A stretch of DNA of 47,979 nt from an uncultured Bacteroidia bacterium. Its GTDB lineage: Bacteria > Bacteroidota > Bacteroidia > J057 > CALLMJ01. The notes below the pieces were generated by a model. The model saw only the letters and a list, made by a program, of their open reading frames with translations. It did not search any database and was not told the DNA's origin. Position 1 is the first letter of the stretch. The number at the start of each line of letters is the position of its first letter. Positions 1,704 to 23,527 of this stretch are shown here, piece after piece. The translations under genes and the position numbers were made by a program. Where the stretch lies: positions 1 through 47,979 of the forward strand of contig CALLMJ010000031.1 in assembly GCA_938006875.1 (NCBI GenBank), given 5' to 3'.

Positions 1704-4700
1704 ATGAAAAAAATTTTATTTTTTTTGAGTTTAATTTTTCAAATTTTAAAAGCTCAAAATGGTTATTATTATGTAAAATCTTTTCAAACAGAGCTTCATA
1801 AAGAAACCAGTCCTATCGGTAAACTTGATTTGGCTCCAAATGGAATTATTTTCTGTTCTAGTTCTTATGGTATTTTAGGTTTTGATGGAAAAAGTTGGTT
1901 TATTACCTCAACAGAAAGTTCTGTTTATGATATCAAAGTAATACAAAATCAAATCTTTTTTATTACTGATAATTATATCGGAAAAATTTCCAATCTTGAT
2001 AAATTTCCATATAAACCTGAAAAATTTTTAGAATTAAAATCTAAATATAATCAGATTGAATTTCTCAATCAAAGCCTTTTTTTATTCTCTGAGGAAGAGA
2101 TTTTGGTTATATCCTTAGAAGAAAAAACACAAAAATCTATAAAAGTTCCTAGTGAAGGGGTATTTGGTGGTATGCTAAAATATAAAAATGAAATTTGGGT
2201 TTTAGACCCTTCATTAGGTTTTTTGAGTATTAATCCTAAAAATTATGAATTAGAACCTGTACAAAATAGCCAAATTTTTGAAAATCAATATTTACAAAAT
2301 TATTTTTCAACACCTGAAGTTCTTTATTTAGTTACATTAGACAATGCCATTTACAGTTACGAAAACCAAAATTTTAAGTTTTTAGGGCAATACAATTCTG
2401 CTAAAAATACTTATATTCAAGGAATTAGTGTAGTTGATGATGAAATTGTTGCAGCTACCAATAATCAAGGTTTATTAGTAATTAACAGAAATAATGGTAC
2501 TATTCAACAACAAATTAGTACTATTCATGGTTTACCAGACAATGAAATTCATTCTATATTTTTAGATAAAAATCAAGGAATTTGGTTAGTTCATCCGTTT
2601 CATTTTTCTAGAATTTATTGGAGTAAAAAATTTGAAGATTATACCAACGCAGTAGGTTTGATTGGTAATATTCATGTTCTAGCAAAAAATCAAGAACAAA
2701 TTTGGGTGGGTACCGATAACGGACTTTTCTATTTATCCTATGAAATACCCAAAGAATCTGAAATGCTATCATTTACTGTAAATAAAACAATTATCAAACG
2801 TGAAAATGTAGTTAAGAACATTCAAGATACCAAACCAAATAATCAAATTAAAAAAGAAAATACAGATGACCAAAAAGAAGATAAAAAAGAAAAAAAAGGT
2901 TTATTTAACAAACTGAAAGATAAATTTTCCAAAAAAGACAAAAAAATAAAGGATAATACCGAAGAAAATAAATCCAATTCTAACACTGTTCAAGAAGAAA
3001 AAAAACAAACCATTGTCGAAGAAAAAAAATACACTTATCAAGAAAACGTAAACCAAATAAATATCAAATCCGCTGAAAACTACAGAAGATATTTAGTTTT
3101 TCGCCCTATTCAAGGAATATCAGAAATGGTTTATGATATAAAAATAATATCTAACAGAGTTTTTGCAGGAACTCAGAAAGGTTTTTATGAAATTATTGAT
3201 AAAAAAATTGAATTCAAATTACCCGTTTTAACTTACAAAATCGTTGAACAAAATGGCAATATCTGGATAACCAGTAACCAAAAAGTAATACTATTACAAA
3301 AAAATGGAAAGTTATGGGAGGTTTCTAATACTTTTAATTCTGGACGTTTTATTAATAGTTTGGTAATTCAAGGAAATGAAATTTTAGGTGGTACATCCAA
3401 AGGTTACTTTAAAACTTCTTTTCAATTACAAAATGTTAAATGGTTTTTAGAAAATGAAGGGAATATTTATTTAAAAAAGTATCAAAATCAAATTTTTGGT
3501 TTGAGCCCAAAAAGCATATTCAAAATTGATAACCAAGCAAATTTTATTAATTTAACCCTTCCCTCTAATTATCAAATCATACCTTCTCATGAAGGAATAT
3601 ATTTATTTTCAAAATCTTTGATTTTAGCTTTTAATTCTAATTTATCGTGGGATACTTTATATTATAGCCGTATATTAGATGACGTTCCCTCCTTTATTCA
3701 TGAAGATAATCAGTATTTAATATCGGGTAAAAAATCATTATTAAAGTTTTATAAAGAAAATCCAAAGGACAAAAATCAAGTTTATGTACGTGGTTATATA
3801 ATTACAGGAAAATCATTCTGGGGAACAGTTTATAAAGACTCTTTGATTTATGACAATCAACTTTATCTACCTTATGGAGATTATAATATCAATGTAAAAT
3901 TATCAACTTCAAATTTATTCAATCCCGAGGCATCACAATATTTTGTAAGCATAAACAATGGTGAATGGACACTCGTAGAAGGTAAAGATTGGATTTTATA
4001 TAATCTACCATCAGGAAAATATTCTATAGGATTAAAAGCCATTTTACCCAATGGTCAAATCTCTGATATTTACACATTTGAAATCCATGTTGCCTATCCT
4101 TTTTGGAGAAGTTGGTGGTTTTATCTTTTTGTAATTAGTATTTTTGTTTCATCAGCTTATTTTTATACAAAATATAAACTTCGTAAATTAGAAGAAGAAA
4201 AAAGAAAAATTGAAGAAGAAAATCAAATATTAGAACAAAAAGTTGAAGAAAGAACGCGAGAAATTGCTGAGCAAAAACAAATTATTGAAGAAAAAAATAT
4301 GGAAATTATGGATAGTTTGAGATATTCAGAAAGAATACAACAAGCTATGTTACCAAAAGAGCAACAAATTCATTCAATATTTGAAAACAATTGTTTTGTT
4401 TTATACATGCCCCGAGATGTTGTAAGTGGTGATTTTTATTGGGTTTATGAAAAAAATAATCAGCTATTAATAGCTGCTGGTGATTGCACTGGGCATGGTG
4501 TTCCCGGTGCTTTAATGAGTATGATTGGTATTTCTATGCTCAATAAAATTGTGGATAGTGGTGTATATGAACCCGCAAAAATTTTATCTCTCTTACATAA
4601 AGAAATTCATGAATCCTTAAAACAAGGTTCTAATAATCAAGTACTTGATGGTATGGACATCGCTATTGTTCTTTATGAACTTCAAAATAATAAATTTACC

Positions 4701-5743: not shown

Positions 5744-6841
5744 TTATGCAGAAGTTAAAAAGTGCATGATATCACCATCTTGAACAACATAATCTTTTCC
5801 TTGTACTGCCATTTTACCGGCTTCTTTAATAGAAGCTTCTGAACGATATTGGATATAATCTTCGTATTTGATTACTTCAGCACGAATAAAATGTTTTTCG
5901 AAGTCGGAATGAATTTCTGCGGCAGCTTGAGGGGCTTTTGCACCTTTTTTGATAGTCCATGCTCTAACTTCCTTCACACCAACTGTAAAATAAGTTTGTA
6001 AACCTAATAAATCAAAAGCAGAACGTATCAACTTATCTAAGCCTGATTCATTCAAACCATATTCCTGTAAAAACATTTGTTTTTCTTCTTTTTCTGGAAT
6101 TTCAGCAATTTGAGCTTCTAGTGCAGCACAAATTCTTAAAACTTGAGCATTTTCATTTTTTACGGATTCTCTTAATGCTTTTACATAGTCATTATCTTCA
6201 TGTAACGAAGATTCATCAACATTTGCTACATACATCATGGGCTTCATGGTTAGCAAAAATAAATCACTAATTACTTCTTTTTCTTCATCTGAAGCATCTA
6301 AATTACGAGCATTTTTACCTTGTTCAATATGTTCTTTAAATTTTTGATATACTGCTAATTCTTGTTTTGCTTTTGCATCACCTGCTTTAGCACTTCTTTC
6401 AACTTTGCCTATACGAGAATTAAGAGTTTCTAAATCTTTAATTTGAAGTTCAAGTTCAATAATTTCTTTGTCTAAAACGGGGTCAATAGGGCCTGAGGAA
6501 CGCACGATATTAGGGTCATCAAAACAACGAACCACATGAACAATAGCATCTACTTCACGAATATGCGTCAAAAAGGCATTACCTCTACCTCCTCCTTTAC
6601 TTGCACCTTTTACCAAACCAGCTATATCTACAAATTCAACATTGGCATAAACTACACGTTGTGGGTTTACAATTTTTGCAAGTTCCTCTAAACGATTATC
6701 TGGAACATCAACAATTCCGATGTTAGGGTCTATTGTAGCAAATTCATAATTAGCTGCCACGTTTTGTATATTAGTTAACGCAGAAAAAAGCGTTGATTTC
6801 CCAACATTCGGTAATCCTACTATACCACATTTTAATCCCAT
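5744..6841 (-). CDS. ychF: Redox-regulated ATPase YchF (OLA1 family)
   Basis: This 365-residue Obg-related P-loop NTPase has a G1 motif GLPNVGKST (about residues 8-16), a G3 DIAGLVKGASKGGG segment and an NVDE motif in place of NKxD. That replacement is the family signature explaining its preference for ATP. The C-terminal TGS-like domain contains AWTIKKGAKAPQAA and IHSDFEKHFIRAEV. YchF proteins associate with ribosomes and stress responses. It sits 25 bases downstream of apt and one base upstream of pcm. Length and motifs leave no realistic alternative. Confidence 0.97.
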   Translation of the reverse strand: MGLKCGIVGLPNVGKSTLFSALTNIQNVAANYEFATIDPNIGIVDVPDNRLEELAKIVNPQRVVYANVEFVDIAGLVKGASKGGGRGNAFLTHIREVDAIVHVVRCFDDPNIVRSSGPIDPVLDKEIIELELQIKDLETLNSRIGKVERSAKAGDAKAKQELAVYQKFKEHIEQGKNARNLDASDEEKEVISDLFLLTMKPMMYVANVDESSLHEDNDYVKALRESVKNENAQVLRICAALEAQIAEIPEKEEKQMFLQEYGLNESGLDKLIRSAFDLLGLQTYFTVGVKEVRAWTIKKGAKAPQAAAEIHSDFEKHFIRAEVIKYEDYIQYRSEASIKEAGKMAVQGKDYVVQDGDIMHFLTSA

Positions 6842-11028: not shown

Positions 11029-12603
11029 TTATTGAACCTTAATTTCCAGGTTCTCTATTTTCATTTGAGGTTTAATTTCAATTTCTTGAGGATAAATATA
11101 TATATCTTCTGGTAATTTTAAAGTATTAAGATTACCTGTTGACCATAATCCGTTGCCATCTTCATCATCAATTAAAACAATTTGATATTTTCCTGGATTT
11201 AACTCATTAAAAATCAAATTTTTATCATTAAAAACTTTTATTTCTTTTGTTTGAGTATTTTTTAAGAATCCTAAGAAATTTGGATAATCACATTGAATAC
11301 TGATTTTTAAATATCCATAAAATTCATCTTCTGATTTAGGTTTAATTTTAAATAGAAGTGTTGAATCTAATTTTTGATTCTGATACGATAAAAATAAACT
11401 ATCTATTAAAACTGTATAAACTTGTCCTGTATCGACTTTGTCTTTAACGTCAATCTTTATTATGTTATCATTTACATAAATAGGAAGCGGTAAAACCTTT
11501 TGTAAGCTATCTAAAACCTTTATGTAAAGTAAATTTTTTTCTTGTAATACAGTATTAGCTTTAAAAGTCCAATATTTGGGTGTAATTTCTGGTTTTTCAA
11601 TTTGAAATGTTCGTGTATAAGCATTGGTTTTATTTAATGCAAAATTAAAAACTGTATCCAAAGAATTTCCTAAGGTATCTAACACATTCCATAATTTTAT
11701 ATTTAAACTATCTTTAATGGGTTCGGGAAAATAAATTTCTAATTTTTGTTCGTTAGCAATAAATTTACAATTAGTAGATGCTTGAATTTTTAAAGAATCT
11801 TTTATAATAGGTTCTGAAAATTCAAACCAATAATTAATACTATCTTTCCAATAAGATTTCTTTATTTTAGGTGCTTGTACATCATTAGGAAAACAATATA
11901 AATCAAATTCTTGTTTAAAATTCTTATTTAAATCAATAGTAATTTGTTCATCAATACCTATATTTTCACCATCATTAAATTTATAATCATTATTTTTATC
12001 TTGAACCGCTAAAATTTTATATTTTCCAGGTTTAACATAGCTTACTTTATATTGATAATTTTCATTCACCAAACCAAAATACATGGGAATTTGATTATGA
12101 AAATTTAGAGAAGAAATGCTATCTTGGTCATATAAAAAAACCATAAAATTATCAAGTTTCATTTTGGGATGCGTTTTAATTAATTCACCATAGACACTAC
12201 ATGTATCAAACTCATTTGACTTTGTAAAAGGAAATTGTTGAATTTGCCTTAAAGTATTACCTTCATTAAAATCTTTAATATTTTTGCCGATAGTTAATAA
12301 ATAAGTTAAATCATTATCCAAATTATTGGGGAGAATAATTTTAATTTTTTTTCCATAAGTTAAAACTTTTGCTGGGGTTTTTAAAGGTGGGGAAAATAAA
12401 ATTTCTTTTGTATAATCTTCATTTCTAATATACTCATTAAATTTTAGTTCAATTTTTTTTTCATTAAAACGAGTTTTGGGTAAATCAGGTTGAATAGTTT
12501 TAATTAAAGGAGGTTCTTCATCTTTGGGTCCTCCCTCTGGATAACGAATAGAAGCACAGCCCAATATCAAAATTAAAATAAACGGCAAACAAAATTTATT
12601 CAT
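11029..12603 (-). CDS. Ig-like domain lipoprotein (SbsA Ig-like / Big_5 type)
   Basis: The 524-residue product begins with a lipoprotein signal (LILILGCAS, lipidated Cys at about 16), followed by the YPEGGPKDEEPP motif. That motif is characteristic of a widespread Bacteroidota family with an N-terminal SbsA-type Ig domain (IELKFNEYIRNEDY onward). Further segments contain two EF-hand-like acidic loops (DKNNDYKFNDGE and DDEDGNGLWSTG) in Cna-B-like contexts. The protein is probably an outer-membrane-anchored lipoprotein of unknown role. It is the last gene of the nadA operon; its ATG overlaps the mnmG stop (TAATG). Orthologues often lie near mnmG in this phylum (recollection, not checked). Confidence 0.85.
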   Translation of the reverse strand: MNKFCLPFILILILGCASIRYPEGGPKDEEPPLIKTIQPDLPKTRFNEKKIELKFNEYIRNEDYTKEILFSPPLKTPAKVLTYGKKIKIILPNNLDNDLTYLLTIGKNIKDFNEGNTLRQIQQFPFTKSNEFDTCSVYGELIKTHPKMKLDNFMVFLYDQDSISSLNFHNQIPMYFGLVNENYQYKVSYVKPGKYKILAVQDKNNDYKFNDGENIGIDEQITIDLNKNFKQEFDLYCFPNDVQAPKIKKSYWKDSINYWFEFSEPIIKDSLKIQASTNCKFIANEQKLEIYFPEPIKDSLNIKLWNVLDTLGNSLDTVFNFALNKTNAYTRTFQIEKPEITPKYWTFKANTVLQEKNLLYIKVLDSLQKVLPLPIYVNDNIIKIDVKDKVDTGQVYTVLIDSLFLSYQNQKLDSTLLFKIKPKSEDEFYGYLKISIQCDYPNFLGFLKNTQTKEIKVFNDKNLIFNELNPGKYQIVLIDDEDGNGLWSTGNLNTLKLPEDIYIYPQEIEIKPQMKIENLEIKVQ

Positions 12604-14471
12604 TATCTACCTATAAAAATCAAAAGAGCGGAGATATCAGCTGGAGAAATTCCACTTATTCTTGAAGCTTGACCAATACTTTGAGGTTTTATTTTTAATA
12701 ATTTTTGTTTGGCTTCATTAGATAAACCATGGCAATTTTCATATTTTAAATTTTCTGGTAAACGAATATCTTCAAGTTTTTTCATTTTATCTACGAGAGC
12801 AATTTCTTTTTCTATATATCCTTGATATTTAATTTCAATTTCGGCGGCTTCTAATGCTTCATAGGCATATTCATATAATTTAGCAGATAATTTAGGATTC
12901 ATCCAACGTAGATTTTCCAATTTAACATTAGGTCTTAATAAAACATGAGCTGCTTTTTGACGAGTTTTTAAGGGTTGTTCATTTAAGTATTCTAATATTT
13001 CATGAGAATTTTCAGGTTCTATATAAAATTGATTAAGCAATTCAGAAATTTCGGAAATCTCTTTTTCTTTTTGTAAAAGTTCTTGGTATCTATCTTCTTT
13101 GGCTAGGCCAATATTATAACCGATTTTAGTCAAACGTCTATCCGCATTATCTTGCCTTAAAAGAATACGATATTCAGCACGTGAAGTGAACATTCTATAA
13201 GGTTCATCAGTACCTTTTGTTACTAAATCATCAATTAAAACACCAATATAAGCTTGGTCTCTTTTGAGAATTAAGGGTTCTTGATTTTTTATTCTTAGTG
13301 CTGCGTTAATTCCTGCCATAATTCCTTGAGCTGCAGCTTCTTCATATCCTGTTGTACCATTAATTTGACCTGCAAAATATAAATTTTTAATCAATTTAGT
13401 TTCTAAGGTTAATTCTAATTGGTGAGGTGGGAAATAATCATATTCAATTGCATAACCGGGTCTAAACATTTTAGCATTTTCTAAACCGGGGATATGTCTT
13501 AACGCTTCATATTGAATTTCTTCTGAAAGTGATGAAGAAAAACCATTTAAATAAATTTCATGGGTTCTCCATCCTTCAGGTTCAATAAATAATTGATGTC
13601 TTTCTCTTTCTGAAAAACGAACAATTTTATCTTCAATGGATGGACAATATCTTGGACCTAAACCTTGAATTCTTCCAGTAAATAATGGGGATTTTTCAAA
13701 ACCTTTTTGAAGTATTTCATGAACTTTCGGATTGGTATAGGTTATATAGCAAGGTAATTGTTTATGTTCTATAGGAAAATCGAGAAAAGAAAATTTTCTT
13801 TTGGGTTTATCACCTTCTTGGATTTCAGTTTTAGAGTAATCAATGGTTCTTCCATCAATTCTAGGAGGTGTACCCGTTTTCATTCTACCGGATTCAAAAC
13901 CTAATTCATTCAATTGTTCAGTTATACCTTTGGCAGCTTTTTCACCTGAACGACCACCTGAGAATTGTTTTTCACCAATATGGATAATTCCGTTTAAAAA
14001 AGTCCCATTAGTTAAAATAACGGTTTTACTATAAAATTCTTTACCCATAGCAGTAATCACTCCTTTTACATAATTATCCTTTACAATAATTCTAGCGACC
14101 ATATCCTGCCAAAAATCTACATTAGGAGTATTTTCTAAGGTATATCTCCATTCTTCTGCAAATTTTAATCTATCGTTTTGAGTTCTGGGGCTCCACATTG
14201 CAGGTCCTTTCGATCGGTTAAGCATTCTAAATTGGATAGCTGTTTTATCAGAAATTATACCTGAATAACCACCTAAAGCATCAATTTCTCTTACAATTTG
14301 TCCTTTTGCTACACCACCCATTGCTGGATTACAAGACATTTGAGCTATGGTAGTCATGTTCATAGTAATTAATAAAACTTTACAACCCATATTTGCTGCC
14401 GCTGCCGCTGCTTCGCATCCAGCGTGACCTGCACCCACTACTATAACATCATAATTATCTTTTATACCCAT
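12603..14471 (-). CDS. mnmG: tRNA uridine-5-carboxymethylaminomethyl(34) synthesis enzyme MnmG
   Basis: This 622-residue FAD enzyme works with MnmE to modify wobble U34 of several tRNAs. It shows the dinucleotide-binding motif VVGAGHAGCEAAAAAANMG near the N-terminus, the family blocks CNPAMGGVAKGQIVREIDA and GYEEAAAQGIMAGINAA, and the C-terminal GISPADISALL. The length is standard. It is the seventh gene of the nadA operon. A parS site lies in the 54-base gap before its start, fitting the old name gidA and the origin-proximal location seen in many bacteria. Confidence 0.98.
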   Translation of the reverse strand: MGIKDNYDVIVVGAGHAGCEAAAAAANMGCKVLLITMNMTTIAQMSCNPAMGGVAKGQIVREIDALGGYSGIISDKTAIQFRMLNRSKGPAMWSPRTQNDRLKFAEEWRYTLENTPNVDFWQDMVARIIVKDNYVKGVITAMGKEFYSKTVILTNGTFLNGIIHIGEKQFSGGRSGEKAAKGITEQLNELGFESGRMKTGTPPRIDGRTIDYSKTEIQEGDKPKRKFSFLDFPIEHKQLPCYITYTNPKVHEILQKGFEKSPLFTGRIQGLGPRYCPSIEDKIVRFSERERHQLFIEPEGWRTHEIYLNGFSSSLSEEIQYEALRHIPGLENAKMFRPGYAIEYDYFPPHQLELTLETKLIKNLYFAGQINGTTGYEEAAAQGIMAGINAALRIKNQEPLILKRDQAYIGVLIDDLVTKGTDEPYRMFTSRAEYRILLRQDNADRRLTKIGYNIGLAKEDRYQELLQKEKEISEISELLNQFYIEPENSHEILEYLNEQPLKTRQKAAHVLLRPNVKLENLRWMNPKLSAKLYEYAYEALEAAEIEIKYQGYIEKEIALVDKMKKLEDIRLPENLKYENCHGLSNEAKQKLLKIKPQSIGQASRISGISPADISALLIFIGR

Positions 14472-14490: not shown

Positions 14491-14506
14491 TGTTCCACGT
14501 GGAACA
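14491..14506. promoter_or_regulatory. parS site 1 (ParB-binding centromere), perfect palindrome
   Basis: TGTTCCACGTGGAACA is a perfect 16-base palindrome and matches the known chromosomal parS consensus (TGTTNCACGTGNAACA). It lies in the mnmG-ybeY gap, 38 bases from a second copy. No T-run follows, so it is not a terminator. ParA/ParB genes are not in the window. Confidence 0.88.
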
Positions 14507-14525: not shown

Positions 14526-14969
14526 TCATGTTCCACGTGGAACTTTTAAAGAATAAAAATAAAAAATATATTTATCTTCGGTTTCTCTCATTAATAGTTC
14601 ATCAGAATCAGTTGTATCATTATATCCAATACAATGTAAAATACCATGAATCATTACTCTTAATAATTCATTCATGAAATCAACCTTGTATTCCCTAGCA
14701 TTCTCTTCTACCCTATCCAAACTAATAAAAATCTCCACTTGTAAATTTGAATCTTCAGAATAATCAAAAGTGATTATATCCGTATAATAATCATGATTCA
14801 AAAAATTTTTATTAATACGTAATATATTCTCATCATTACAAAAATGATAATGCAATTTTTTTATATGAAAATTATTTTCTTTAGAAATATGATTAGCTAA
14901 TTGTTTGAAATGTTCCTTAAAAGATTTGATTAAAAATTTAGGTCTTTGGTCAAAACTGTAGCTAATCAT
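14526..14969 (-). CDS. ybeY: rRNA maturation endonuclease YbeY
   Basis: This 147-residue metalloprotein of the UPF0054 family acts in 16S rRNA 3'-end processing and ribosome quality control. The metal motif reads HGILHCIGYND, so the third ligand of the usual HGxLHxxGYDH is an Asp preceded by Asn rather than His. I recall similar variants in other Bacteroidota. The upstream INKNFLNHDYYTDIITFDY block matches the family's N-x-x-F-x-x-x-D-x-x-T-D-V-L-x-F-x-Y. The start overlaps the stop of the preceding ATPase gene by 4 bases (ATGA). The last codons coincide with a parS site. Confidence 0.93.
   Translation of the reverse strand: MISYSFDQRPKFLIKSFKEHFKQLANHISKENNFHIKKLHYHFCNDENILRINKNFLNHDYYTDIITFDYSEDSNLQVEIFISLDRVEENAREYKVDFMNELLRVMIHGILHCIGYNDTTDSDELLMRETEDKYIFYFYSLKVPRGT
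14529..14544. promoter_or_regulatory. parS site 2, inside the 3' end of ybeY
   Basis: TGTTCCACGTGGAACT matches the palindrome at 15 of 16 positions. On the minus strand it encodes the last residues of YbeY (VPRGT) and runs into the stop codon, so the ParB site and coding sequence share these bases. Confidence 0.85.
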
Positions 14970-19479: not shown

Positions 19480-20528
19480 GATTTACCAAAATGATGATAA
19501 CCATAAGGTTTTAATGGAATATAACTTTCATCTAATTGTAACAACATAGGTTCAGAAAACTGTTCTGTCATGTAACCAATTATACGAATATCTTTATTTT
19601 TAGTAACTTCATTATATTTTTGAGGTGAAATTGTAAATATTAATTCATAATCTTCACCACCATATAACATAAAAGTAGTTAAAGGAATATTTAACAATTC
19701 GGAAACTTTTTGAGTTTGATAATCAGAATAAAGTTTATCTTGATAAATCACTGCACCTAGTTTGGAAGCTTTGGATAAATGATTAATTTCATTCGATAAA
19801 CCATCAGAAATATCTATCATAGAAGATGGTTGTAATTGATTTTCATTAAAAAAACGAATCATATCATACCTAGCTCTGGGTCTTAACTGCCTTTCTATTA
19901 CATAATCATATTCATTCAAATCAGGTTGGACGTTAGGATTTTGTAAAAAAACTTGTTTTTCTCGTTCTAAAATCTGTAAACCTGCATAAGCAGCACCTAA
20001 ATCACCTGTAACACAAATTAAATCTGCATGTTTTGCACCGGAACGATAAACAATTTTTTCTTTATCAAAAATAGAATTAACTGTAATAGAAATTATTAAA
20101 TCCTTTCTCGATGATGAAGTGTCACCACCAATTAAATCTACTTGTAATTCATCACAAGCAATTTGTATACCTTGATAAATTTGTTGAATTAACTCAAATG
20201 AATGAAAATTAGAACAAGCAATTGATACCGTAATAGAAGTGGGCATAGCATTCATAGCTATAATATCAGAAAAATTTACCATCGCTGATTTATAACCTAA
20301 ATGAATAGGTGGTGTATAACTCAAATCAAAATGAACACCCTCAACCAATAAATCTGTAGATGTTAATAAAACTTGATTTTCTGATATTTGCTGAACAGCG
20401 CAATCATCACCAATTCCTTTCAAAAGATTTGGATGATACTGTTTAAAATTTTTAGTCCATTCATGAATTAATTCAAATTCATTAAACTGAATTAAAGGTG
20501 TAAACTTGACTTCCTTGTTTTCTATCAT
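19476..20528 (-). CDS. thiL: Thiamine-monophosphate kinase
   Basis: This 350-residue ATP-dependent kinase makes thiamine diphosphate from thiamine monophosphate. Family blocks include KGIGDDCAV near residue 40, LLTSTDLLVEGVHFD, DIIAMNAMP, DLIGGDTS and the C-terminal IDISDGLSNEINH. The length is typical. It is translationally coupled to nadA upstream and xthA downstream through 4-base ATGA overlaps; no thiamine biosynthesis gene is adjacent. Confidence 0.95.
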   Translation of the reverse strand: MIENKEVKFTPLIQFNEFELIHEWTKNFKQYHPNLLKGIGDDCAVQQISENQVLLTSTDLLVEGVHFDLSYTPPIHLGYKSAMVNFSDIIAMNAMPTSITVSIACSNFHSFELIQQIYQGIQIACDELQVDLIGGDTSSSRKDLIISITVNSIFDKEKIVYRSGAKHADLICVTGDLGAAYAGLQILEREKQVFLQNPNVQPDLNEYDYVIERQLRPRARYDMIRFFNENQLQPSSMIDISDGLSNEINHLSKASKLGAVIYQDKLYSDYQTQKVSELLNIPLTTFMLYGGEDYELIFTISPQKYNEVTKNKDIRIIGYMTEQFSEPMLLQLDESYIPLKPYGYHHFGKS

Positions 20529-21538
20529 AATCCCAATTGAGCTGAAATATCTAACATTCTTTGAATAGGAACTAATGCCTTTTGAATAGTTTCACTATCT
20601 AAAAGTAATTCTGGAACTTCATATTTAAGGCAAATATATACCTTTTCTAATGTATTCAATTTCATATGGGGGCAATTATTACAGGCACAAGCATGATTGG
20701 TTGGTGCTGGTATAAAAATTTTATTAGGTGATGACTTTTGCATTTGATGTAAAATACCCGGTTCTGTAGCAACAATAAATTTATTAGTTATAGATTTTTT
20801 TGTGTATTCTAATAATCCATATGTAGAACCTATATATTTCGATAAACTTAAAACAGAGGCTTCACATTCAGGATGTGCTATCAATTCAGCATCTGGATGA
20901 TCAGATAATAAATCAGCTATTTTTTTATGATTAAAAATTTCATGTACCATACATGCACCATTCCATAAAACCATATTTCTTCCAGTTAATTGATTAATAT
21001 AAGCTCCTAAGTTTTTATCAGGAGCAAAGATTAAAGGCTGATCTTTTGGATATGAATTGACAATTTGAACAGCATTTTTTGAAGTAACAATAACATCAGA
21101 CATTGTTTTTAAAGCAGCAGAACAATTCACATAAGTAATTACTTTATGTTCAGGATACTTCTTTTTAAATTCAGCAAATAAAGGTGCAGGTGCTGAATCT
21201 GATAATGAACAACCAGCATTCAAATCAGGTAATATTACCTTTTTGTTAGGACATAAAATTTTTGCGGTTTCAGCCATAAAGTGAACACCAGCAAACAATA
21301 TGATATTAGCATTAGTTTTGGCGGCTTGTTGAGCTAATCCTAATGAATCTCCTACAAAATCTGCTATATCCTGAATATCTGAATCTTGATAATAATGTGC
21401 TAATATAATAGCATTTTTTTCTCTCTTTAGTTTTTCTATTTCTTCAAATAAATCTAAACTAGGATCTACTTCTACATCGTAGAATCCTTTTTTTTCAATT
21501 TCTTTTAATTGAGGTTTATCAACAATTACCATTTTCAA
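20525..21538 (-). CDS. nadA: Quinolinate synthase A
   Basis: This 337-residue 4Fe-4S enzyme condenses iminoaspartate with dihydroxyacetone phosphate to quinolinate in NAD synthesis. It shows ILAHYYQDSDIQDIADFVGDS near the N-terminus (in part), LNAGCSLSD, WNGACMVHEIF, AHPECEA and CNNCPHMKLNT. The three cluster-ligand cysteines expected for NadA (in GCSL, near GACMVH, and in CNNCPH) are all present. It is the first gene of the eight-gene operon and faces the DnaA-box spacer. No nadB or nadC is nearby. Confidence 0.97.
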   Translation of the reverse strand: MKMVIVDKPQLKEIEKKGFYDVEVDPSLDLFEEIEKLKREKNAIILAHYYQDSDIQDIADFVGDSLGLAQQAAKTNANIILFAGVHFMAETAKILCPNKKVILPDLNAGCSLSDSAPAPLFAEFKKKYPEHKVITYVNCSAALKTMSDVIVTSKNAVQIVNSYPKDQPLIFAPDKNLGAYINQLTGRNMVLWNGACMVHEIFNHKKIADLLSDHPDAELIAHPECEASVLSLSKYIGSTYGLLEYTKKSITNKFIVATEPGILHQMQKSSPNKIFIPAPTNHACACNNCPHMKLNTLEKVYICLKYEVPELLLDSETIQKALVPIQRMLDISAQLGL

Positions 21539-21958
21539 TCAACTATAAGTATATTTTTTTAATAAAATACTTAAAAAACATAGTAGTAGTAATAAAGACG
21601 TGAATATCTTAATAACTACACTTTGTTCCTTTACTAATATTTTTACGCACAAATTGACCACAAAGTTTTATAATTGTTTTAAAATTTTAAATTTTATTTA
21701 TCTGATAGTTATAAAAAACTATCCACAATTCTGAAATCATTTTATTTTTCAATTGTGAATAAGATTTATTAACATTATTCGTTTTTATTTATTAGAATTT
21801 CTGTGAATAAGATTGGAGAAACAATCATATTTAAAAAAATAGAAATATTATCAAGATACTTGAACATAACTCTAATATAAAATGTGGAAATTTTATGAAT
21901 AAGTTGAAATTAAAAACATGAAATTATTTAATCTATAAATTTGCAACTTGTAAACTTT
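21539..21958. other. AT-rich divergent spacer with clustered DnaA boxes (candidate oriC)
   Basis: This 420-base gene-free spacer between divergent nadA and the LysM transglycosylase holds two exact DnaA boxes on the minus strand (TTATTCACA at 21754-21762 and 21802-21810). It also holds 8-of-9 matches at 21719-21727 (CTATCCACA, plus strand) and 21894-21902 (TTATTCATA, minus strand). Flanks are extremely AT-rich, suitable for unwinding. Two parS sites lie about 7 kb away. dnaA itself is not in the window, and single DnaA boxes are expected by chance at this GC content, so only the cluster plus parS supports an origin. Confidence 0.45.
21936..21943 (+). promoter_or_regulatory. -7 promoter element (TAAATTTG) for the LysM transglycosylase
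   Basis: TAAATTTG fits TAnnTTTG and ends 15 bases before the ATG at 21959. The -33 element is not clear. It rules out the in-frame TTG at 21941 as the start. Confidence 0.5.
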
Positions 21959-23527
21959 ATGAAAAAAGGATTTATATTTTTTTTGATGACGGCTTCCTAT
22001 TTATTAAGTTTTTGTAAAGTGATTGTACCTAATCAAATAGAATATTGTGGAATGAAATTAATTTTTTCACAAGGAGCTAGAATACAAATACAAAAATATG
22101 TTGATAAAATCATGGAAAATGACCTTTATTTCTATAAAATGATAGAAAAAGCGTCTTTAAAATTTCCAATTATAGAAGATGCTTTTAGATATATGGGATT
22201 ACCAGAAGACATTAAATTTATTTGTATTCAAGAAAGCGGATTAAAAGGTGATGCGGTTTCTTCATCGTTTGCTGTTGGATATTGGCAATTTAAAGATTTT
22301 ACAGCTGAAGAGGTGGGTCTAACTATCAATTATTTAATTGATGAAAGAAAACATTTGTATCGTTCGTCAGTGGGTGCTGCTAAATATTTCTATCGTCAAT
22401 ACAGCAAATATAAAAATTGGGTTTATGCAGTTACTGCTTATTATACAGGAACTACAGGTGCCTTGCCTTTTGTGAAATCAGAATATGTGAATTCCAATTC
22501 TATGTATGTAACTGAAGATGTACATTGGTATGCTTTAAAAGCAATAGCTCATAAAATTGCATATCAAAATTATTTAGAAAAAACACCAATTTCTCAAAAA
22601 AAATTAGTACCTTTTCCTACAAATGGTGAAACCCATTTAGAAACTCTTGCAAAAAAACATAATATTTCTGTTTCTGAATTAAAGTACTTAAACCCTTGGA
22701 TGATTAACCAAACATTACCCACAAATCCTATCAGTTATTATGTTTTAGTAGAAGGTAATTTTAATTTATCCGATCCTTATCAGTTAGTTTTTTCTAAACC
22801 TTTACCCATAAAATCTCAACCTTATATTACAACAAATCAAGATAAATTTGTGCATGCTAATCAAAAAGTATTGATAGATACTTCTTCTGTAAATACTTAT
22901 AAAGTAGAATATGATTCTTATTATTATATCCAAAAACAAAAAGAAAATCAAGAAATTTTTCAAAGATTGTCTATTAGTTCAGATTTTACTAAATTATCCA
23001 TTCAAACCGATCCACTTTATAGTATAGAATTTTTTGTAGTGGGTGAAGAAACACTGGAAGAAATTTCTAAACGCTTTAAAGTATCTGAAAAAAAATTAAT
23101 TGATTATAATCGTTTAATAAGTAAAAATCTACAAAAAAATCAAATATTATATTTAGTTTCACCTAAAAAATCCAAAATTCATATTTTAGTAAAAAATGAA
23201 ACTTTGAATGAAGTCTCTGAATTTCATCAAATTAAATTAGAAAAAATTTTAAAAAATAATCAATTAGATTTAGACAACTTGGATTTAGTAGAAAATCAAA
23301 AAATATATTTGAGGATTTCAAAACCCACTTTTGAAAAAAAAATAATTTATAAACTTCCTTATGAAGATGCAAACCAATGGATAACTCATGAAGTAAAACA
23401 AGGAGAAACTTTGAATAGCATAGCCAAAATGTATCAAATAAAAGCAGAAGAATTGAAAAATATAAATTTTTTACCCAATTTTCAAGTAAAAGCAGGTCAA
23501 ATTTTAAAAATTAAACAGAATAAATAA
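21959..23527 (+). CDS. MltD-like lytic murein transglycosylase with LysM repeats
   Basis: The 522-residue secreted protein has an N-terminal signal sequence (about 1-20) and a GH23/SLT domain with the catalytic Glu in IQESGLKGDAVSSSFAVG (Glu92), followed by GYWQF and AVTAYYTGTTGAL. Four LysM-like peptidoglycan-binding modules follow, with cores GETHLETLAKKHNIS, EETLEEISKRFKVS, NETLNEVSEFHQIK and GETLNSIAKMYQIK. It should cleave glycan strands to 1,6-anhydro ends during wall remodelling. The start is ATG 21959. rnhB follows after 4 bases, probably co-transcribed. Confidence 0.93.
   Translation: MKKGFIFFLMTASYLLSFCKVIVPNQIEYCGMKLIFSQGARIQIQKYVDKIMENDLYFYKMIEKASLKFPIIEDAFRYMGLPEDIKFICIQESGLKGDAVSSSFAVGYWQFKDFTAEEVGLTINYLIDERKHLYRSSVGAAKYFYRQYSKYKNWVYAVTAYYTGTTGALPFVKSEYVNSNSMYVTEDVHWYALKAIAHKIAYQNYLEKTPISQKKLVPFPTNGETHLETLAKKHNISVSELKYLNPWMINQTLPTNPISYYVLVEGNFNLSDPYQLVFSKPLPIKSQPYITTNQDKFVHANQKVLIDTSSVNTYKVEYDSYYYIQKQKENQEIFQRLSISSDFTKLSIQTDPLYSIEFFVVGEETLEEISKRFKVSEKKLIDYNRLISKNLQKNQILYLVSPKKSKIHILVKNETLNEVSEFHQIKLEKILKNNQLDLDNLDLVENQKIYLRISKPTFEKKIIYKLPYEDANQWITHEVKQGETLNSIAKMYQIKAEELKNINFLPNFQVKAGQILKIKQNK

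Follow-up and report, generated by a model that had tools for sequence, protein, structure and literature searches.

In many bacteria the chromosomal origin of replication, oriC, adjoins dnaA. In the draft genome of an uncultured Bacteroidia bacterium (GCA_938006875.1) dnaA sits on one contig, C156, and a conspicuous group of DnaA boxes lies on another (CALLMJ010000031.1, positions 1 to 47,979, here called the window), in the spacer between nadA and a divergently oriented gene for a lytic transglycosylase. A sequence-only reading had proposed this spacer as a candidate origin. Is it the site at which replication of the chromosome starts?

The nadA-mltD spacer and its DnaA boxes

The spacer extends from the start of nadA (21538, minus strand) to that of the transglycosylase gene, either TTG 21941 or ATG 21959 on the plus strand (Table 1). 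It is about 400-420 bp long with an AT content of 72-88% in 50-bp windows, in agreement with its first description as an AT-rich divergent spacer of 420 bases. Megablast against phage records gave no match, and the DNA fold of the spacer scored z = -2.75, a value judged to be without clear meaning for duplex DNA.

Table 1. Coordinates of the putative origin, its elements and neighbouring features in the window.
Feature	Position	Strand	Basis
nadA, quinolinate synthase; conserved neighbour of the putative origin	20525..21538	-	NCBIfam
Putative oriC (AT-rich spacer; flanking genes nadA and mltD-like, divergent)	21539..21940	.	Sequence, stability, relatives
Putative DNA unwinding element	21540..21590	.	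Nearest-neighbour stability
DnaA-trio-like tract TTATTACTACTACTA (3'-AAT AAT GAT GAT GAT-5' on the + strand)	21581..21595	-	Sequence
DnaA-box-like ATATTCACG, two mismatches, 3 bp from trios	21599..21607	-	Counterpart upstream of nadA in relatives
Box TTACGCACA, one mismatch	21643..21651	+	Within block similar in sister species
Box CTATCCACA, one mismatch	21719..21727	+	Within block similar in sister species
Exact DnaA box TTATTCACA	21754..21762	-	Consensus match; not conserved in sister species
Box TTATTAACA, one mismatch	21766..21774	+	Consensus match
Exact DnaA box TTATTCACA	21802..21810	-	Consensus match; not conserved in sister species
Box TTATTCATA, one mismatch	21894..21902	-	Consensus match
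MltD-like lytic transglycosylase, LysM-type repeats	21941..23527	+	NCBIfam weak match, below cut-off
parS site TGTTCCACGTGGAACA	14491..14506	.	Genome motif scan, at most one mismatch
Second parS site TGTTCCACGTGGAACT	14529..14544	.	Genome motif scan, at most one mismatch

When mismatches are scored against the DnaA box consensus TTATNCACA, the two exact and two 8-of-9 boxes originally read at 21719-21902 are indeed present, CTATCCACA reaching 8/9 only with position 5 left free. The spacer thus holds an intergenic DnaA-box cluster, one of the features by which a DnaA-dependent bacterial oriC is recognized. Within the window the clustering exceeds chance, as had been claimed: no 300-bp box cluster score there is higher than that of the spacer region (10, versus a maximum of 8 in 100 Markov-1 simulations, none of which reached the window value). 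Genome-wide, however, the cluster is less special. Exact TTATNCACA occurs 222 times, which leads to the expectation of approximately 0.8 pairs within 48 bp by chance, and at least two other close exact pairs exist, so that clustering alone is suggestive and no proof. Box counting by itself was rejected as proof of an origin on the grounds of this expectation. The other pairs, C23:4221/4262 (4221-4270) and C19:6466/6499 (6466-6507), lie beside unrelated genes and may be regulatory sites, titration sites or chance occurrences.

A putative unwinding core

A basal unwinding system has been described in which no more than 16 bp separate a DnaA box from a run of three or more DnaA-trios, 3'-GAT-5' being preferred (PMC8287927). 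Read on the minus strand toward nadA, the spacer has the order ATATTCACG-TCT-TTATTACTACTACTA (21607-21581), followed by an unstable stretch at 21540-21590. This arrangement comprises a box with two mismatches, a 3-bp gap and five NAN trios, three of them GAT, where the orientation of the trios (3' end of the trio strand toward the box) is our interpretation of the motif notation in PMC8287927. The trio tract has the only TAGTAGTAG of the window, and nowhere else in the genome do three consecutive TAG adjoin a box core. The stretch at 21540-21590 ranks among the most unstable 50-bp stretches in the window, its instability being equalled or exceeded at 0.4% of positions, and it is a candidate for the AT-rich, easily unwound element sought in an oriC. 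The search for a DnaA-trio and an unwinding element, which had been suggested as a check, therefore located candidates for both kinds of element (21581-21595 and 21540-21590). The functional core probably occupies 21540-21607; boxes do occur within the limits first drawn for the origin, 21719-21902, but this likely core falls outside them.

Core forms such as ATATTCACACCCCTAATAGTA and ATATTAACACTCCTAATAGTAGTA are found at a similar position in relatives. Upstream of nadA, a strict box-plus-trio pattern was present in 13 of 75 loci (0.04 expected) and a loose one in 29 of 75 (2.6 expected); these expectations are guides and no strict tests, because the patterns were composed after the sequences had been inspected. 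The window copy fits the loose pattern only, since TTA stands where the strict pattern has CTA.

The spacer shares with the Bacillus subtilis type of basal unwinding oriC the boxes, a set of three or more 3'-NAN-5' trios, GAT repeats among them, with a box at most 16 bp away, and the AT-rich stretch (PMC8287927). Unlike that type, it lies away from dnaA, its trio-side box has two mismatches, TCT replaces the GC-rich gap, and its activity is predicted from sequence.

Conservation in relatives, parS sites and GC skew

With nadA as the guide, the orthologous place was located in 80 named loci and in 22 genomes out of 40 that represent the genus, order and class. Box enrichment was counted in 75 named nadA loci by comparing the 800 bp upstream of nadA with the remainder of the loci. 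There are 71 exact boxes upstream (1.18/kb) versus 0.072/kb elsewhere. The reversed motif occurs five times upstream, and 300 letter permutations gave a mean of 3.5 and a maximum of 20, so AT-richness does not explain the boxes. In these 800 bp no exact box was found in 14 Saprospiraceae-type loci and one cyanobacterial locus, and at least one was present in 35 of the remaining 60; three genomes of the same order (G011, G019 and G004) have 6, 7 and 3, respectively. Position and boxes are thus conserved in relatives, another mark of an oriC, with strong boxes turning over in the sister species.

This turnover is seen in the sister species G001. Identity in the spacer alignment peaks at 0.70-0.80 at 21631-21750 and drops to a minimum of about 0.4 around 21778-21879. 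Kept are the CTATCCACA and TTTGTGCGTAA blocks as well as TTATTAAGATA at the core start, and the trio tract is only partially conserved. The two exact TTATTCACA boxes are absent from the aligned positions, while a TTATCCACA is carried at another place in the G001 spacer. Conservation of the boxes therefore holds as nadA-upstream enrichment in other genera but not for the two exact boxes, which are not conserved in G001. The gene across the spacer from nadA also appears to be different in this species.

In six Pedobacter loci (L040, L045, L049, L050, L055 and L064) the 800-bp region upstream of nadA lacks an exact box; their origin may rely on weaker boxes or have moved. The same loci carry a parS pair about 6.5 kb from nadA. 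Over the long loci, the cross-table of boxes and parS was borderline (p = 0.052), partly because many Pedobacter loci carry parS without an exact box.

When up to one mismatch is allowed, the 2.87-Mb genome has no parS sites other than those at 14491 and 14529. These two lie about 7.2 kb from the box cluster, as in the original estimate of about 7 kb from the spacer, and supply the nearby parS that is looked for at an oriC. The parS pair of G001 has the identical 38-bp spacing and is about 7 kb from nadA, and many loci of Chitinophagaceae and Sphingobacteriaceae, as well as G006, G008 and G011, have parS no further than 10 kb from nadA. The neighbourhood includes mnmG (12603-14471), as does that of the enterobacterial gidA (mnmG)-mioC oriC (PMC10225481); unlike in the latter, the boxes are 7 kb away from mnmG, and it is the parS pair that abuts this gene.

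Over the first 35 kb of the window the cumulative GC skew is lowest at 21,750, a position within the spacer, and toward the right end it falls again; for the window as a whole the change point lacks significance (p 0.53). On contig C5 of G001 the change point is at 49.5 kb and the cumulative minimum at 51.9 kb, with nadA at 50.6-51.6 kb, and on contig C14 of G031 the change point is at 70.0 kb, with the nadA start at 69.9 kb. Both change points were unreached in 5000 permutations of 500-bp blocks. The fine skew of Chitinophaga sp. E66 changes at 5,614 kb (p 0.0026) versus nadA at about 5,617 kb, and coarse sampling of this complete chromosome gave negative skew ahead of the nadA region and mostly positive skew beyond. 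The skew also changes sign close to nadA in G042 and G044; in the latter this happens about 25-65 kb ahead of the gene. The pattern is reversed at 80-90 kb on contig C18 of G006, of the same order, where a cumulative maximum lies at about 80 kb near parS and nadA.

The spacer as probable chromosomal origin

We consider the nadA-mltD spacer to be oriC with a probability of about 0.9, because box enrichment, the trio core, parS, skew turns in five other genomes and a dnaA locus without a cluster all point to it. The proposal of a candidate origin thus gains support from the nadA-upstream boxes, the box-trio core, the unique parS pair and the skew turns in relatives. Several observations count against it: the window skew (p 0.53), the reversed G006, the exact boxes not conserved and the trio tract only partially conserved in G001, the two mismatches of the core box, and the many Pedobacter loci that carry parS and lack exact boxes upstream of nadA. 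The origin would very probably be of the ordinary DnaA type, situated beside nadA instead of dnaA at a place common to many relatives.

It could be argued that the origin adjoins dnaA on C156, as it does in so many bacteria, and that the spacer is an accessory DnaA-binding (titration) site; one exact box indeed lies 1.9 kb from the dnaA match. An origin next to dnaA had been named beforehand as a result that would speak against the spacer. No box cluster was found at dnaA, the examined dnaA loci holding at most one exact box, and the genome scan revealed no parS with at most one mismatch there. Moreover, dnaA and nadA are about 0.78 Mb apart in E66 and 0.94 Mb apart in Pedobacter frigiditerrae, and in both the sampled skew turns near nadA and not at dnaA, which makes a dnaA-linked origin highly improbable.

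DnaA is also a gene regulator in other bacteria, and the boxes are located in a divergent promoter region. They might accordingly belong to DnaA-regulated promoters of nadA and the transglycosylase gene, with the origin elsewhere. We regard this as unlikely in view of the skew turns at nadA in relatives, the nearby parS, the unwinding-type core and the apparently different gene beyond the spacer in the sister species. That AT-rich DNA produced the cluster by chance agrees with the number of close exact pairs expected and found genome-wide and with the poor conservation of the exact boxes, but is very unlikely given that boxes at the orthologous position are enriched in other genera well beyond permuted motifs, and given the conserved core and parS.

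If the spacer is oriC, its workings may be inferred from model origins. DnaA would bind the outer boxes (21719-21902) and the box-like site (21599-21607), and would then polymerise onto the single-stranded 3'-GAT-5' trios (21581-21595), opening the AT-rich DNA on the nadA side. A helicase loader, perhaps DciA, would load the replicative helicase for bidirectional replication, and ParB, acting at the parS pair 7 kb off, would move the new origins apart. The dnaA, parB and dciA genes are all present in the genome, and its DnaA protein carries RDHSTV, the box-recognition signature of other DnaA proteins.

Bacteroidota origins have been predicted from parS and GC skew, and their adjacency to dnaA is not universal (PMC10197239). 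Our assignment likewise relies on parS and skew, with dnaA not always adjacent; those origins, however, were from gut species and drew on Hi-C and read coverage, whereas here a draft genome was used and the origin was placed by comparison, with nadA as the neighbour. We found no description of a nadA-oriC linkage in Bacteroidota in the open literature, and origin databases (DoriC) may already list the nadA site. It is a tentative suggestion, at somewhat less than even odds, that the nadA-linked oriC represents a previously undescribed location conserved across several Bacteroidota families, in which the box-NCC-(C/G)TA-ATA core is kept and the strong outer boxes turn over. The origin is assigned here in a draft genome through comparison, without whole-chromosome skew. 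A simple rule would follow for the broad range of Bacteroidota in which dnaA gives little guidance: inspect the region upstream of nadA and expect parS nearby. An origin whose core persists while its outer boxes change would also be a natural system for finding out which of its parts are indispensable.

Box arrays were also seen downstream of nadA. In a Chitinophaga sp. MAG (L068:12117-12974, NZ_JAFAIX010000012.1) ten exact boxes form a tandem array at intervals of about 62 or 123 bp. This array, located about 1-2 kb downstream of nadA, could be a DnaA titration site or a component of a second origin module. A group of five exact boxes lies about 7 kb downstream of nadA in Chitinophaga sp. E66 (L093:18229-18691), and four of the five are spaced at about 71 bp.
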